From: Astropecten irregularis | Lineage: Eukaryota; Echinodermata; Asteroidea; Paxillosida; Astropectinidae | Direction of reading: 5' to 3' | DNA length: 64,000 nt | Assembly: GCA_963971285.1 (NCBI GenBank) | Contig: OZ020251.1 | Location: 2,356,001-2,420,000, forward strand | In this document: positions 2,264 to 16,336 of the stretch, piece by piece | Layout of the letters: every line of letters begins with the position of its first letter | Numbering within the stretch: position 1 is the stretch's first letter | Program-made: the position numbers and the translations under genes | The notes under the pieces: model-generated | The model's database searches: none | What the model was told of the DNA's origin: nothing | The model's input: the letters and a program-made list of their open reading frames with translations, nothing else

Positions 2264-4199
2264 AGGTGTTCGGGTTCAAGCCGAACACCTATTGTTATTG
2301 TTCGAGTTTTTTTTTTTTTTTAGGTGTTCGGGTTCAAGCCGAACACCTATTGTTATTGTTCGAGTTTTTTTTTTTTTTTTTTTTTTTAGGTGTTCGGGTT
2401 CAAGCCGAACACCTATTGTTATTGTTCGAGTTTTTTTTTTTTTTTTTTTTTTTTTTCTCCTTCCACCCAAACTTGTCAGCAGGACTTCTATATCACAGTT
2501 ACAAGATATTGACTTGAAACTTGGTGGGAACTTCGGTCATGATCCCAAGTTGTATTTAGAAGATTGACGTCATGATGACGTCATCGGGTATCAAATTACA
2601 CACGTTTTTAGGAAAAACTTTGGTGCTTTATAACTTGAGAACCACATGACCTATGATTTTGATATTGACATATGTTACTCACCTTATGAATCTGAACAAT
2701 TAATATATTCAATGTTGTGTACAAATGACCTTCACTTCCGGTGTTACCGGAAGTTGAAGTTTGACTCAAAATAACTCAAAATCAGAAAGGTTTTGGGCAC
2801 ATACAATTGCTTGGCAAAAAGATAGAATAGGTCTTAGGCTTTCAGAAAATATAAACGATGACGTCATACGGGCTGTATAGCGCCCTCTACGGTGGATTAA
2901 AGATATACAGTGATTACGTAATCCAAAAGTAAACAACGTATTCCCGCCAAATTTAGTGAGTTTGAAGCACTATCGCACCTTGACATATGTGTGAAGTTTG
3001 AAATCTGTGACTTCATTCAACCGGAAGTTATGCGTTTTTAAAGGAAATATTATGTAATTATTCAAATACTGTTTATTCAGTAATTACATGACGTACATCA
3101 GTGCAAATTGCAAATTGTTAAAATTGTACGCATTCGATGATTTCTGCAAATTCACTCATTATGTGCCTAAAAACTCACAACCCTGCCAACTTTCCAAGCC
3201 CTTACCTTGCTGACATCAAAACAGATATCAAACAAACAGTTAGTGGAGTTTTGATAACAGTAAAGTGTAATTCTGGACCGGCTTGCTATTGTTAACCAGT
3301 GGCCATTATTCTTTCCTCAATGCCGTGTACTTCACCGTGTCATAGTGCTGTACATTCAGTCAGCGTGTATGAATATAAGTGAATACGATCGTAATACACT
3401 AAAACTAAAATTCGCTTGAGGTGCTGTGCCACATACACAGGGATTTATATTGTGTTGCTAATATTAACCATTTTCCACGCACAAATTTCCAAGCTAGCTA
3501 ACGTGAACTTTTGAACACATAGGCCTTATTAGTTTGTGGACAGATTTCTCACATGTCACGTTTTATAATTAAAGTGCGACAGTTCCATGGACTCGTGCAC
3601 TAAAATAAACCCTCTTAGTATTTGCTTGTCTGAATCGAACTTCGTATACAAATCGTTCAGGCAACGAGTATGAAAAATAGCCTACTTTCAGCACTTTGAA
3701 ACCCAACTGTCGCCCTACTGTGGAGTACGCTTTTCAGGGGTCAAATACTGTCGCCTTATTCTAGAATAAAACATTTTATTTCAATGATGACACGCATTTG
3801 GTATTAAAGGTACAATACAGGATTGGTAACATACCCATACAGAAATGTTCACAGATATACGTATAACTTTCAGGGTATGAAGAGAAACATACCATTAAAA
3901 TATTTCCGCATGAAATGCGTGTATTGTCAGTTGTTTGTGATTAACTAAACGGAAGTTATCGTTCGGGCAATTTTACATTATTTAAAGGTGACACGATTTC
4001 CTATACGCTATCAGTCAGTGTACATGTGCGAATACACTGTGCAATCAGCATGATCAGTACTTGCTCAGTCACACAGTCAACTTAAGTGTATTTCAATAAT
4101 TATGCCATACACGCGTTACATCAAACATTCTCTTAACAGTTCCAGTACGAAATGTGACCCCGAACACCTAGTGGTTGTTCCCACAACCACAATGTCTAG
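2264..4199 (+). mobile_element. HINE-like unit 1 (B-type core, interrupted)
   Basis: Three 5' modules (starts 2264, 2322, 2388) separated by T tracts, then a B-type core. About 774 bp (3153-3926) interrupts the core; it is absent from the other twelve units. Confidence 0.85.
3153..3926. mobile_element. Insertion inside HINE-like unit 1, with MITE fragment
   Basis: The other units read straight from GCAAATT into TTCAGTTG; here 774 bp intervene. No inverted ends are visible. Bases 3805-3905 match, inverted, the TTAAAGG-type MITE at 40640-40865. The rest is not recognised. Confidence 0.7.
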
Positions 4200-5287
4200 T
4201 TTTTTTTTTTAGGTGTTCGGGTTCAAGCCGAACACCTATTGTTATTGTTAGAGTTTTTTAGGTGTTCGGGTTCAAGCCGAACACCTATTGTTATTGTTCG
4301 AGTTTTTTTTTTTTTTTTTTTTTTTCTCCTTCCGCTCAAACTTGTCAGCAGGACTTCTTGGTGACAGGTACAAGATATTGACCTGAAACTTGGTGGGAAC
4401 TTCGGTAGTGATGCCAAGTTGTGGCTAGAAGATTGACGTCATGATGACGTCATCAGGTATCAAATTACGCGCGTTTTTATGAAAAACTTTGGTGCTTTAT
4501 AACTTGAGAACCACATGACCTACGATTTTGATATTGACATATGTTACTCACCACATGAATCTCAACAATTAATATATTCAATGTTGTGTACAAATGACCT
4601 CCACTTCCGGTGTTACCGGAAGTTGACGTTTGACTCAAAATAACTCGAAAACGGAAGGATTTGGGCACATAAAACCTCGCGGGGTAAAAGATAGAGTAGG
4701 TCTTAAGCTTTCAGAAAATATAAACGATGACGTCATACGGGCTGTATAGCGCCCTCTATGGTGGATTAAAGATATACAGTGATTACGTAATCCAAAAGTA
4801 AACAACGGATATCCGCCAAATTTGGTGAGTGTGAAGCATTGATGCACCTCAACATATGTGTGAAGTTTGACATCTGTGACGTCATTCAACCGGAAGTTAT
4901 GCGTTTTTAAAGGAAACATGATGTAATTATTCAAATACTCTTTATTCGGTAACTACATGACGTACATCAGTGCAAATTGCAAATTGTTTACATCGTACGC
5001 ATTCGATGATTTCTGCAAATTTTCAGTTGTTTGTGATTAACTAAACGGAAGTTATCGCCCGGACAATTTTACATTTTTTAAAGGTGACACGATTTTCTAT
5101 ACGCTATCAGTCAGTGTACATGTACGAATACACTGTGCAATCAGCATGATCAGTATTTGCTCAGTCATACAGTTAAATTGTATTTCAATATGCCATACAT
5201 GCGTTCCATTAAACATTCTCATAACAGTTCCAGTACAAAATGAGACACCGAACACCTAGTGGTTGTTCCCACAACCACAATGTCTAG
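4200..5287 (+). mobile_element. HINE-like unit 2 (A-type)
   Basis: Two 5' modules at 4211 and 4260, a long T tract, A-type core and a complete 3' hairpin/CTAG end. Confidence 0.85.
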
Positions 5288-14378: not shown

Positions 14379-15355
14379 TTTTTTTTGTTATTTTCCTTCT
14401 TCCCAAACTTGTCAGCAGGACTTCTTGATGAAGGTTACAAGATATTGACTTGAAACTTGGTGGGAACTTAGGTAGTGATGCCAAGTTGGGCCTAGAAGAT
14501 TGACGTCATGATGACGTCATCGGGTATCAAATTACGCGCGTTTTTAGGAAAAACTTCCGTGCTCTGTAACTTGAGAACCACATGACCTATGATATTGATA
14601 TTGACATATGTTACTCAACACGTAAATCTCAACAATTAACATATTTAGTGTTGTGTACAAATGACCTTCACTTCCGGTGTTACCGGAAGTTGAAGTTTGA
14701 CTCAAAAAAACTCGAAAACGGAAGGATTTGGGCACATAAAACCCCGCGGGGTAAAAGATAGAGTAGGTCTTAAGCTTTCAGAAAATATATATGATGATGT
14801 CATGCGGGCTGTATATCGCCCTCTACGGTGGATTAAAGATTTACAGTGATTACGTAATCCAAAAGTAAACAATGGATTTCCGCCAAATTTAGTGAGTGTG
14901 AAGCACTAATGCACCTTGACATATGTGTGAAGTTTGAAATCTGTGACGTCATCCTACCGGAAGTTATGCGTTTTTAAAGGAAACATGATGTAATTACATG
15001 TATTCAAATACTGTTTATTTGGTAATTACATGACGTACATCATTGTAAATTGCAAATTGTTTACATCGTACGCATTCGATGATTTCAGTTGTTTGTGATG
15101 AACTAAACGGAAGTTATCGCCCGGGCAATTTGACATTGTTTAAAGGTGACACGATTTTCTATACGCTATCAGTCAGTGTACATGTACGAATACACTGTGC
15201 AATCAGCATGATCAGTATTTGCTCAGTCACACAGTTTAAGTGTATTTCAGTATGCCATACAAAGTCATGCGTTCCATCAAACATTCTCATAATAGTTCCA
15301 GTACGAAATGAGACCCCGAACACCTAGTGGTTGTTCCCACAACCACAATGTCTAG
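14379..15355 (+). mobile_element. HINE-like unit 12 (A-type)
   Basis: No 5' module; one CRE is degraded (GATGATGTCATG); intact 3' end. Confidence 0.85.
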
Positions 15356-16336
15356 TTTTTTCTTTTTCTCCTTCCGCTCAAACTTGTCAGCAGGACTTCT
15401 TGGTGACAGGTACAAGATATTGACCTGAAACTTGGTGGGAACTTCGGTAGTGATGCCAAGTTGTGCCTAGAAGATTGACGTCATGATGACGTCATTGGGT
15501 ATCAAATTACGCGCGTTTTTAGGAAAAACTTTGGTGCTTTATAACTTCAGAACCACATGACCTACGATTTTGATATTGACATATGTTACTCACCACATGA
15601 ATCTCAACAATCAATGTATGCAGTGTTGTGTACAAACGACCTTCACTTCCGGTGATACCGGAAGTTGAAGTTTGACTCAAAATAACTCGAAAACGGAAGG
15701 ATTTGGGCACAAAAAACCGAGAGGGCTAAAAGATAGAGTAGGTCTTGGGCTTTCAGAAAATATCAACAATGACGTCATACGGGCTGTATAGCGCCCTCTA
15801 CGGTTGCTTAAAGATATACAGTGATTACGTAATCCGAAAGTAAACAACGGATTTCCGCCAAATTTGGTGAGTGTAAAGCACTAGTGCACCTTGACATGTT
15901 TGCAAAGTTTAAAATCAGTGACGTTATTCAACCGGAAGTTATGCGTTTTTAAAGGGAAAATGATGTCATTATTCAAATACTGTTTACTCGTTAAGTACAT
16001 GACGTACATCAGTGAAAGTTGCAAATTGTTAACATCCTATGCATTGAATGATTTTTGCAAAGTTTCAGTTGTTTGTGATTAACTAACCGGAAGTTATCGT
16101 CCGGGCAATTTTACATTATTTAAAGGTGACACCATTTTCTATACGCTATCAGTCAGTGTACATATAATACGAATACACTACACTCAGCATGATCAGTATT
16201 TGCTCAGTCACACAGTTTAAGTGTATTTCATAATGCCACACATATGTTCCAACAGACATTCTCATAACAGTTCCAGTACAACTACAAAATGAGACCCCGA
16301 ACACCTAGTGGTTGTTCCCACAACCACAATGTCTAG
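15356..16336 (+). mobile_element. HINE-like unit 13 (A-type, terminal copy)
   Basis: No 5' module. Its CTAG at 16333-16336 abuts non-repeat DNA (TTCAATATT), which fixes the right edge of the array. Confidence 0.85.

Follow-up and report, generated by a model that had tools for sequence, protein, structure and literature searches.

Arrays of a HINE-like transposon in the starfish Astropecten irregularis point to serial self-insertion

How does a mobile element come to lie in a row of head-to-tail copies that resembles a satellite repeat? The question is raised by a 64,000-nucleotide stretch of the genome of the starfish Astropecten irregularis (contig OZ020251.1, positions 2,356,001 to 2,420,000, forward strand; hereafter the window), which carries at positions 2264 to 16336 of the plus strand an array of 13 units of a HINE-like element, inserted at TT and flanked by TT on both sides. 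A preliminary description of this DNA ascribed the amplification to rolling-circle replication that had missed its termination. This explanation is not supported, as neighbouring units are about as diverged as units of different arrays, 7 of the 13 units lack the 5' hairpin, and the layout is nested. Our comparison with other arrays of the genome makes it highly probable that the arrays arise mainly by serial self-insertion, in which copies that are mobile on their own enter the T-rich leader of a resident copy. In all likelihood, most copies of these satellite-like arrays came one by one, nested like Russian dolls.

We hypothesize that a new copy would land in the T-rich leader, 12 to 42 nt downstream of the resident copy's 5' hairpin. 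The resident copy would be split, with its hairpin and a first T-rich part, T(a), on the left and the second part, T(b), its body and its 3' end on the right. Each event would add one hairpin in front and one 3' end behind, and the older copy would be left headless at the right. Orientation would be kept because, as we propose, the T-rich strand sets it. Writing "(" for a hairpin, ")" for a 3' end and B for a body, repeated insertions would produce ((B)B), (((B)B)B) and so on, with sibling insertions at times.

The window array and its element

The 13 units share one 40-nt 3' end, CCGAACACCTAGTGGTTGTTCCCACAACCACAATGTCTAG, consisting of a hairpin and CTAG and present in 13 copies with no mismatch, all on the plus strand and with 965 to 1089 bases between consecutive copies. 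These data confirm the preliminary description in its 13 3' ends of one orientation about 1 kb apart and in its clean outer edges, which read TT before AGGTG on the left and CTAG before TT on the right. Its count of 13 copies is right for the 3' ends (13 of 13) but not for the 27-nt 5' hairpin, whose 10 copies are confined to 6 of the 13 units, all among units 1 to 8 (three in unit 1, two each in units 2 and 7, one each in units 4, 6 and 8). Units 3, 5 and 9 to 13 are headless and start with a T-rich tract, so that 13 bodies and 13 3' ends stand beside 10 hairpins. The further claim that no unrelated DNA separates the units is correct apart from the T-rich tracts at the junctions, where the order is CTAG, T-rich bases and then hairpin or body; in the window, CTAG never directly adjoins AGGTG. 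Unit 1 is 1936 bases long and contains about 770 bases that are not present in the other 12 units. The features of the array are as follows.

2264..2456 (+): left edge, three 5' hairpin cassettes (AGGTGTTCGGGTTCAAGCCGAACACCT plus ATTGTTATTGTTCGAG plus T-tract) at 2264, 2322 and 2388
2472..4199 (+): unit 1, body and 3' end, including the extra bases at 3153-3922
4200..5287 (+): unit 2, T-tract, two 5' hairpins (4211, 4260), body and 3' end
5288..6282 (+): unit 3, headless
6283..7315 (+): unit 4, one 5' hairpin (6285)
7316..8291 (+): unit 5, headless
8292..9302 (+): unit 6, one 5' hairpin (8299)
9303..10391 (+): unit 7, two 5' hairpins (9309, 9357)
10392..11453 (+): unit 8, one 5' hairpin (10407)
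11454..12437 (+): unit 9, headless
12438..13413 (+): unit 10, headless
13414..14378 (+): unit 11, headless
14379..15355 (+): unit 12, headless
15356..16336 (+): unit 13, headless, terminus CTAG followed by TTCAATATT
16297..16336 (+): representative 40-nt 3' end with subterminal repeat CCGAACACCT, 8-bp stem and CTAG, identical in 13 of 13
4199, 5287, 6282, 7315, 8291, 9302, 10391, 11453, 12437, 13413, 14378, 15355, 16336 (+): positions of the 3' ends, TT after each

In the alignment of the 13 units, 0 of 520 positions in the last 40 columns differ from the consensus, compared to 721 of 11,686 (6.2%) in the rest of the body, where every 40-column window has at least four differences. The identity of the 3' ends is therefore not due to chance. 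Conserved ends next to drifted bodies would be expected if each copy was still capable of transposition up to its entry into the array.

Judged by its sequence, the unit looks like a non-autonomous Helentron-type element that inserts at TT and leaves TT on both sides. Canonical Helitrons begin with TC, end with CTRR and insert between A and T; CTAG fits CTRR, but the TT target and the 5' end AGGTG do not agree with this class. The 5' hairpin has a 10-bp outer stem and folds, as single-stranded DNA, with -11.5 kcal/mol (z -6.77); the 3' end also folds as a single strand (z -3.70), through a stem of 8 bp that lies 9 nt from the terminus. The 5'-terminal AGGTGTTCGG has its reverse complement in CCGAACACCT, which makes up positions 1 to 10 of the 40-nt 3' end. 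The element has in this the inverted-repeat feature of HINEs, a 5'-terminal repeat with a subterminal partner at the 3' end, and its 3' stem lies within the range of the HINE palindrome (5 to 10 bp, 8 to 35 bp from the 3' terminus). The HINE- or Helentron-like identity given in the preliminary description is supported by the TT target, the asymmetric inverted repeats and the 3' hairpin.

Published work describes HINEs as inserting at a T-rich or TT target with T's at either flank, and as having a 5'-terminal inverted repeat whose partner is subterminal at the 3' end, together with a 3' palindrome near the end (PMC4067079). Our element shares the TT target, the repeat layout, the 3' palindrome and the many dispersed copies with the HINE or DINE-1-like non-autonomous Helentrons of that source. 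It differs from them in the length of the inverted repeat (10 bp versus 12 to 15), in the 3' repeat copy, which ends 30 nt from the terminus (38 to 60 in those HINEs), in the long T-rich leader that serves as its own target, and in the terminus CTAG, which is given there for a proto-Helentron (PMC4067079). Cg_HINE of the Pacific oyster is likewise a HINE linked to satellite-like repeats, with a TT target and no target-site duplication found, but its tandem repeats lie inside the element (PMC7492417). The introduction of that paper describes frequent 3' truncation of the inner copies where whole elements lie in tandem, whereas here inner copies lack the 5' end.

Nested arrays, split leaders and independent units

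The exact 40-nt 3' end occurs 671 times in the 475.7-Mb assembly (168 contigs), and a reversed control pattern not at all. On contig C1, 24 of the 92 spacings between same-strand exact ends are below 1.3 kb, against a chance expectation of 0.15. Our sample comprises 38 stitched blocks (268 kb): 31 on C1, six on other contigs that were found by DNA match, and a 20-kb part of the window. Those on C1 were reached via exact 3' ends or taken beside them; one of them, C1:7600001, holds no copy.

In a set of edges chosen for being clean, the window included, TT precedes the hairpin at 16 of 16 left edges and follows CTAG at 16 of 16 right edges. A search with joined flanks (14 loci queried, 40 of 3,938 candidates scored) recovered paralogous empty sites for 4 of the 14 loci, and one copy per locus was aligned. 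The copies across the joint number at least 21 rows for 7204127, at least 5 for 16090901, at least 13 for 6603973 and at least 1 for 13969501. Each aligned empty site lacks one TT at the joint, 6603973 lacking one further T, and these sites fix the boundaries of the element; the one extra TT at filled sites is either a 2-bp TT duplication or the element's terminal T's, which look alike. An empty site for the window array, envisaged in the preliminary description, did not emerge: the joined-flank search matched just its own two flanks. Solo copies with the same ends, which it had also suggested to look for, do exist at C1:6703734 and at L074 (60 bases of right flank only), with one hairpin and one 3' end each.

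The nesting can be read from the order of hairpins and 3' ends. We scored 13 complete multi-unit arrays with clean edges.

((B)B): C1:6603973, 13969501, 16090901, 25338801, 25474801 and 35338301
(((B)B)B): 35312401
((((B)B)B)B): 12659401
Four hairpins and four 3' ends, two further bodies without 3' ends being ignored: 4602001
One hairpin short: 14646501, the outer array of 35116001 and the inner array of 35116001
Three hairpins short: the window array (10 versus 13)

Hairpins equal units in 9 of the 13 arrays, compared to a null mean of 4.0 when the counts are dealt anew (P = 0.0015), and the summed imbalance between hairpins and units is only 6 (P = 0.00004; 0.0001 on a rerun). Without the window, 9 of 12 arrays are balanced (P = 0.002). 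The hairpin surplus lies at the left and the headless units lie at the right of these arrays; in 12 of the 13 the leftmost unit has a hairpin and the rightmost has none (null 5.2, P = 0.0002).

This set replaced a looser one of 19 arrays, 12 of them balanced, once a sister element, X (see below), was recognised at some edges. Six arrays were dropped for an unclean edge: 6349254, 6852645 and 35415901 adjoin element X, the left hairpin of 11598201 is truncated, there is no 3' end on the right of 13722001, and 27013201 has 33 bases of right flank only. Three of them are balanced (27013201, and 6349254 and 6852645 as scored by body starts) and three are not (35415901 and 13722001 by -1, 11598201 by -3). 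The remaining blocks of the 38 are unclean at one edge or at both, or contain just one unit; 7618001 is in neither set.

The leaders themselves carry the trace of the cut. Mean leader length is 26.1 from hairpin to hairpin (a, n = 67), 31.3 from 3' end to body (b, n = 74) and 54.3 from hairpin to body in intact leaders (n = 57). The two halves together exceed the intact leader by 3.0 (95% confidence interval, 0.06 to 6.4), where a split leader with its extra TT is expected to exceed it by 2. The 14 pairs of halves defined by the brackets (ten arrays, read by hand, two pairs coming from the dropped 27013201) are complementary, one half tending to be longer where the other is shorter (r = -0.67, P = 0.008; Spearman -0.53, P = 0.051), as are those of the six two-unit arrays taken separately (r = -0.91), and the observed variance of a + b is attained by 0.4% of shuffled pairings. 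Without 27013201, r is -0.68 (n = 12) and the shuffled proportion is 0.8%. The mean paired sum is 62.8, which exceeds 54.3 + 2. In C1:25338801, 35116001 and 13722001 the leader is cut within its non-T portion and each half can be recognised, the left as ATTGTTATTGTT or GTTGTTATTGTT ahead of the next hairpin and the right as CTAG-TTC(G/T)A.

Insertion into the body is rare. At C1:8241281 and within C1:35116001 the same site of a sibling body is interrupted and the body continues after the insert; at 6852645 the interrupted body does not continue. Among 128 units, 74 headless leaders were measured versus 3 body insertions (hand count), which per TT dinucleotide is an approximately 86-fold preference for leaders. 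The longest T run in the consensus body is only 5, and a large part of this preference may therefore stem from the length of the T-tract. The hairpin itself may guide insertion. In a stronger reading, which we consider somewhat less likely than not, the element would carry its own landing pad: transposition complexes would recognise the resident 5' hairpin and place the new copy at the TT just downstream, and the bracket structure would record the order of insertion.

Element X is also HINE-like, with the 5' end GGCTTTTTCGATTTCAATCGG and the 3' end CGGAAAAGCC...CTAG before TT. Its repeats differ from those of our element, but it follows the same plan with a CTAG end; it contains internal tandem repeats of approximately 130 bp and is inserted in the same T-rich leaders as the HINE-like units. 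We noted it at C1:6845779-6848818 (block positions 1551-2655), C1:7204127-7209500 and C27:3454735-3458118; at C27:3454735, several of its 5' hairpins are consecutive.

The units of an array are for the most part independent insertions, since neighbours differ about as much as units of other arrays. Over the first 620 bases of the 128 units, mean identity is 90.3% between adjacent units (n = 92), 90.5% between non-adjacent units of one array (n = 252) and 89.8% between arrays (n = 7784). The best sampled match lies outside the window for 12 of the 13 window units, with one tied, and the first 620 bases of the unit 4 body share 99.5% identity with a unit in block C1:7589001.

Other origins and points against self-insertion

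Which other processes could build such arrays? The alternative that survives best is composite transposition, in which a multi-hairpin element, once made by self-insertion, moves as a unit by nicking at the leftmost hairpin and stopping at the first 3' end, so that the surplus hairpins are carried along. It has been put forward for Fusarium Helitrons (PMC5148889, in the part cited here), and C1:9707784, with two hairpins and one 3' end, is the product it would leave. It does not explain why hairpin and unit counts agree or why the leader halves are complementary. We consider it improbable as the main origin of the arrays; it is probably a minor accompanying process.

Unequal exchange is somewhat less probable still. 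Exchange between the T-tracts of the leader and those after CTAG would duplicate headless units, and exchange around the hairpin would duplicate hairpins, which would also leave the hairpins on the left-hand side and the headless units on the right-hand side. Two loci speak for it. In C1:13722001 (L045/L046, C1:13722001-13742000), a 3.9-kb three-unit block, ((B)B)B), is present in three full copies and one partial one, all nearly identical, which is a higher-order repeat inside the array, and window units 4 and 5 (6366-8291) are identical over the last approximately 350 alignment columns, about their last third, while their earlier parts differ, which suggests conversion or local duplication. 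However, a satellite homogenised by unequal exchange should have clearly more similar neighbours, and identities of 90.3% between neighbours and 89.8% between arrays differ by just 0.5 point, the repeat in C1:13722001 being the exception. The ends should also have diverged like the bodies, contrary to the 0/520 versus 721/11,686 differences found, and the leader halves should not be complementary.

Rolling-circle read-through, in which replication runs beyond the 3' terminator and a single event inserts the concatemer so produced, accounts for the head-to-tail order and the full 3' ends and is the explanation given for tandem Helitrons in the cited sections of PMC4067079, which speaks of bypassed termination, and PMC12628747, but we regard it as very unlikely here, as a termination-bypass concatemer should consist of near-identical complete units with direct joints and the arrays fail this in identities, in unit structure (7 headless window units; hairpin surplus left, headless units right) and in junctions (at least 2 intervening bases in all 26 measured from 3' end to hairpin).

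A number of observations weigh against serial self-insertion, or against how firmly it can be read from our sample. With 10 hairpins against 13 units, the window array is three hairpins short, and by unit order alone it does not stand out (P = 0.50); taken by itself it is no proof of self-insertion. We assume that three hairpin cassettes were later lost from it. Three other complete arrays (14646501 and both of 35116001) are each one hairpin short, two single-3'-end loci (C1:9707784 and C1:7204127) have two hairpins and therefore one too many, and 7618001 combines 9 hairpins with at least 8 bodies and contains a right half-leader without a visible left half. A count by bodies leaves 4602001 two hairpins short, and balance falls to 8 of 13 arrays (P = 0.008), or to 8 of 12 without the window (P = 0.008). 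Outside the clean-edge set, 13722001 has no TT on the left and the right edge of 7589001 reads TA. Inner units are not younger than outer ones by terminal branch length in nine arrays including 27013201 (9 pairs each way, P = 0.58). The repeated block in 13722001 and the common last third of units 4 and 5 indicate that conversion and tandem duplication also act. Finally, array scoring was manual, and the C1 sample favours intact ends, as most loci were found via exact 3' ends.

Helentron machinery, known systems and meaning

What moves the element? The genome contains 149 matches to PF14214, the Helitron-like Rep, approximately 94 of which (counted by eye) lie in open frames of at least 3,000 codons, and many are accompanied about 2 kb downstream by PIF1 helicase matches with equal frame lengths. 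Two Rep-locus fragments carry DUF6570 with Rep, one of them also an OTU protease. The motif EFQQRGSPHTH was found in 3 of 3 loci examined, and the S between G and P in Rep motif 2 is a Helentron signature according to PMC4067079. Together, the Rep and PIF1 matches, the long open frames and the Helentron form of the motif indicate that Helentron machinery with many open frames exists in the host. We infer that a Helentron Rep/helicase moves the element. The preliminary description had also proposed to look for an autonomous Rep/helicase element sharing both termini. Helentron-type Rep/helicase genes are indeed present, but 0 of 9 C1 Rep loci with frames of at least 3,000 codons have an exact 3' end within 15 kb downstream, only exact ends having been searched. 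C85 was an attractive candidate with a Rep frame and a 3' end on one strand; no exact 3' end occurs in the 1,650 bases after that frame, and the 3' end lies within an array, because four further hairpins and a body come after it.

Long-frame Rep matches are in places clustered approximately 20 to 50 kb apart, several with identical frame lengths (G000:C14:10485187-10650730, C20:6831088-6905268 and C11:16209717-16385913), as if autonomous elements also formed arrays or were duplicated.

Elsewhere in the window, two arrays of a 16-bp repeat (23934-24103 and 24731-24916) stand in inverted orientation with approximately 600 bases between them, perhaps a foldback element. Tandem arrays of 119 bp and 114/115 bp occupy 45268-46231, 48122-48727 and 56264-56751, the 114/115-bp type in both orientations approximately 8 kb apart. 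Tetraspanin-like open frames (PF00335) are found at 35958-36239 (+), just below the curated cut-off, and at 60619-61119 (-).

The class of mechanism is already known from precedents for self-insertion in Fusarium and for a preferred site. In the cited part of PMC5148889, self-insertion is proposed for Fusarium oxysporum Helitrons with several 5' termini and one 3' terminus, and as one option for a single three-copy tandem in Metarhizium. The Fusarium oxysporum cases are isolated, whereas here many loci show a balance of hairpins and 3' ends and complementary leader halves. McGurk and Barbash, as cited in PMC12628747, attribute tandem transposable elements to site preference and repeated insertion and not to replication; theirs are Drosophila dimers, while here the preferred site is within the element and nesting reaches many copies. 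Xiong et al., cited in the same source, describe centromeric plant Helitrons amplified by the rolling circle, in tandem and with several 5' ends. These are truncated copies, many arrays having a single 3' end, and are explained by a concatemer; in contrast, every unit of our window array has a 3' end and the units are independent. As far as our searches show, what is new is the extent and the quantitative signature of self-insertion in a Helentron-type family. The literature searches made, the sole basis for this statement, found no published report of the element family.

In summary, nested self-insertion is a testable alternative to missed termination for tandem rolling-circle transposons, seen across many loci of one genome. 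It leaves a readable record, with hairpins as opening brackets, 3' ends as closing brackets and complementary leader halves, and this record provides a simple way to separate insertion-built from replication-built arrays. It also gives a concrete route from transposon towards satellite. If hairpin-guided self-targeting is true, satellite-like arrays would form without replication-based amplification. Our work suggests that a transposable element can spare host sites by targeting itself.

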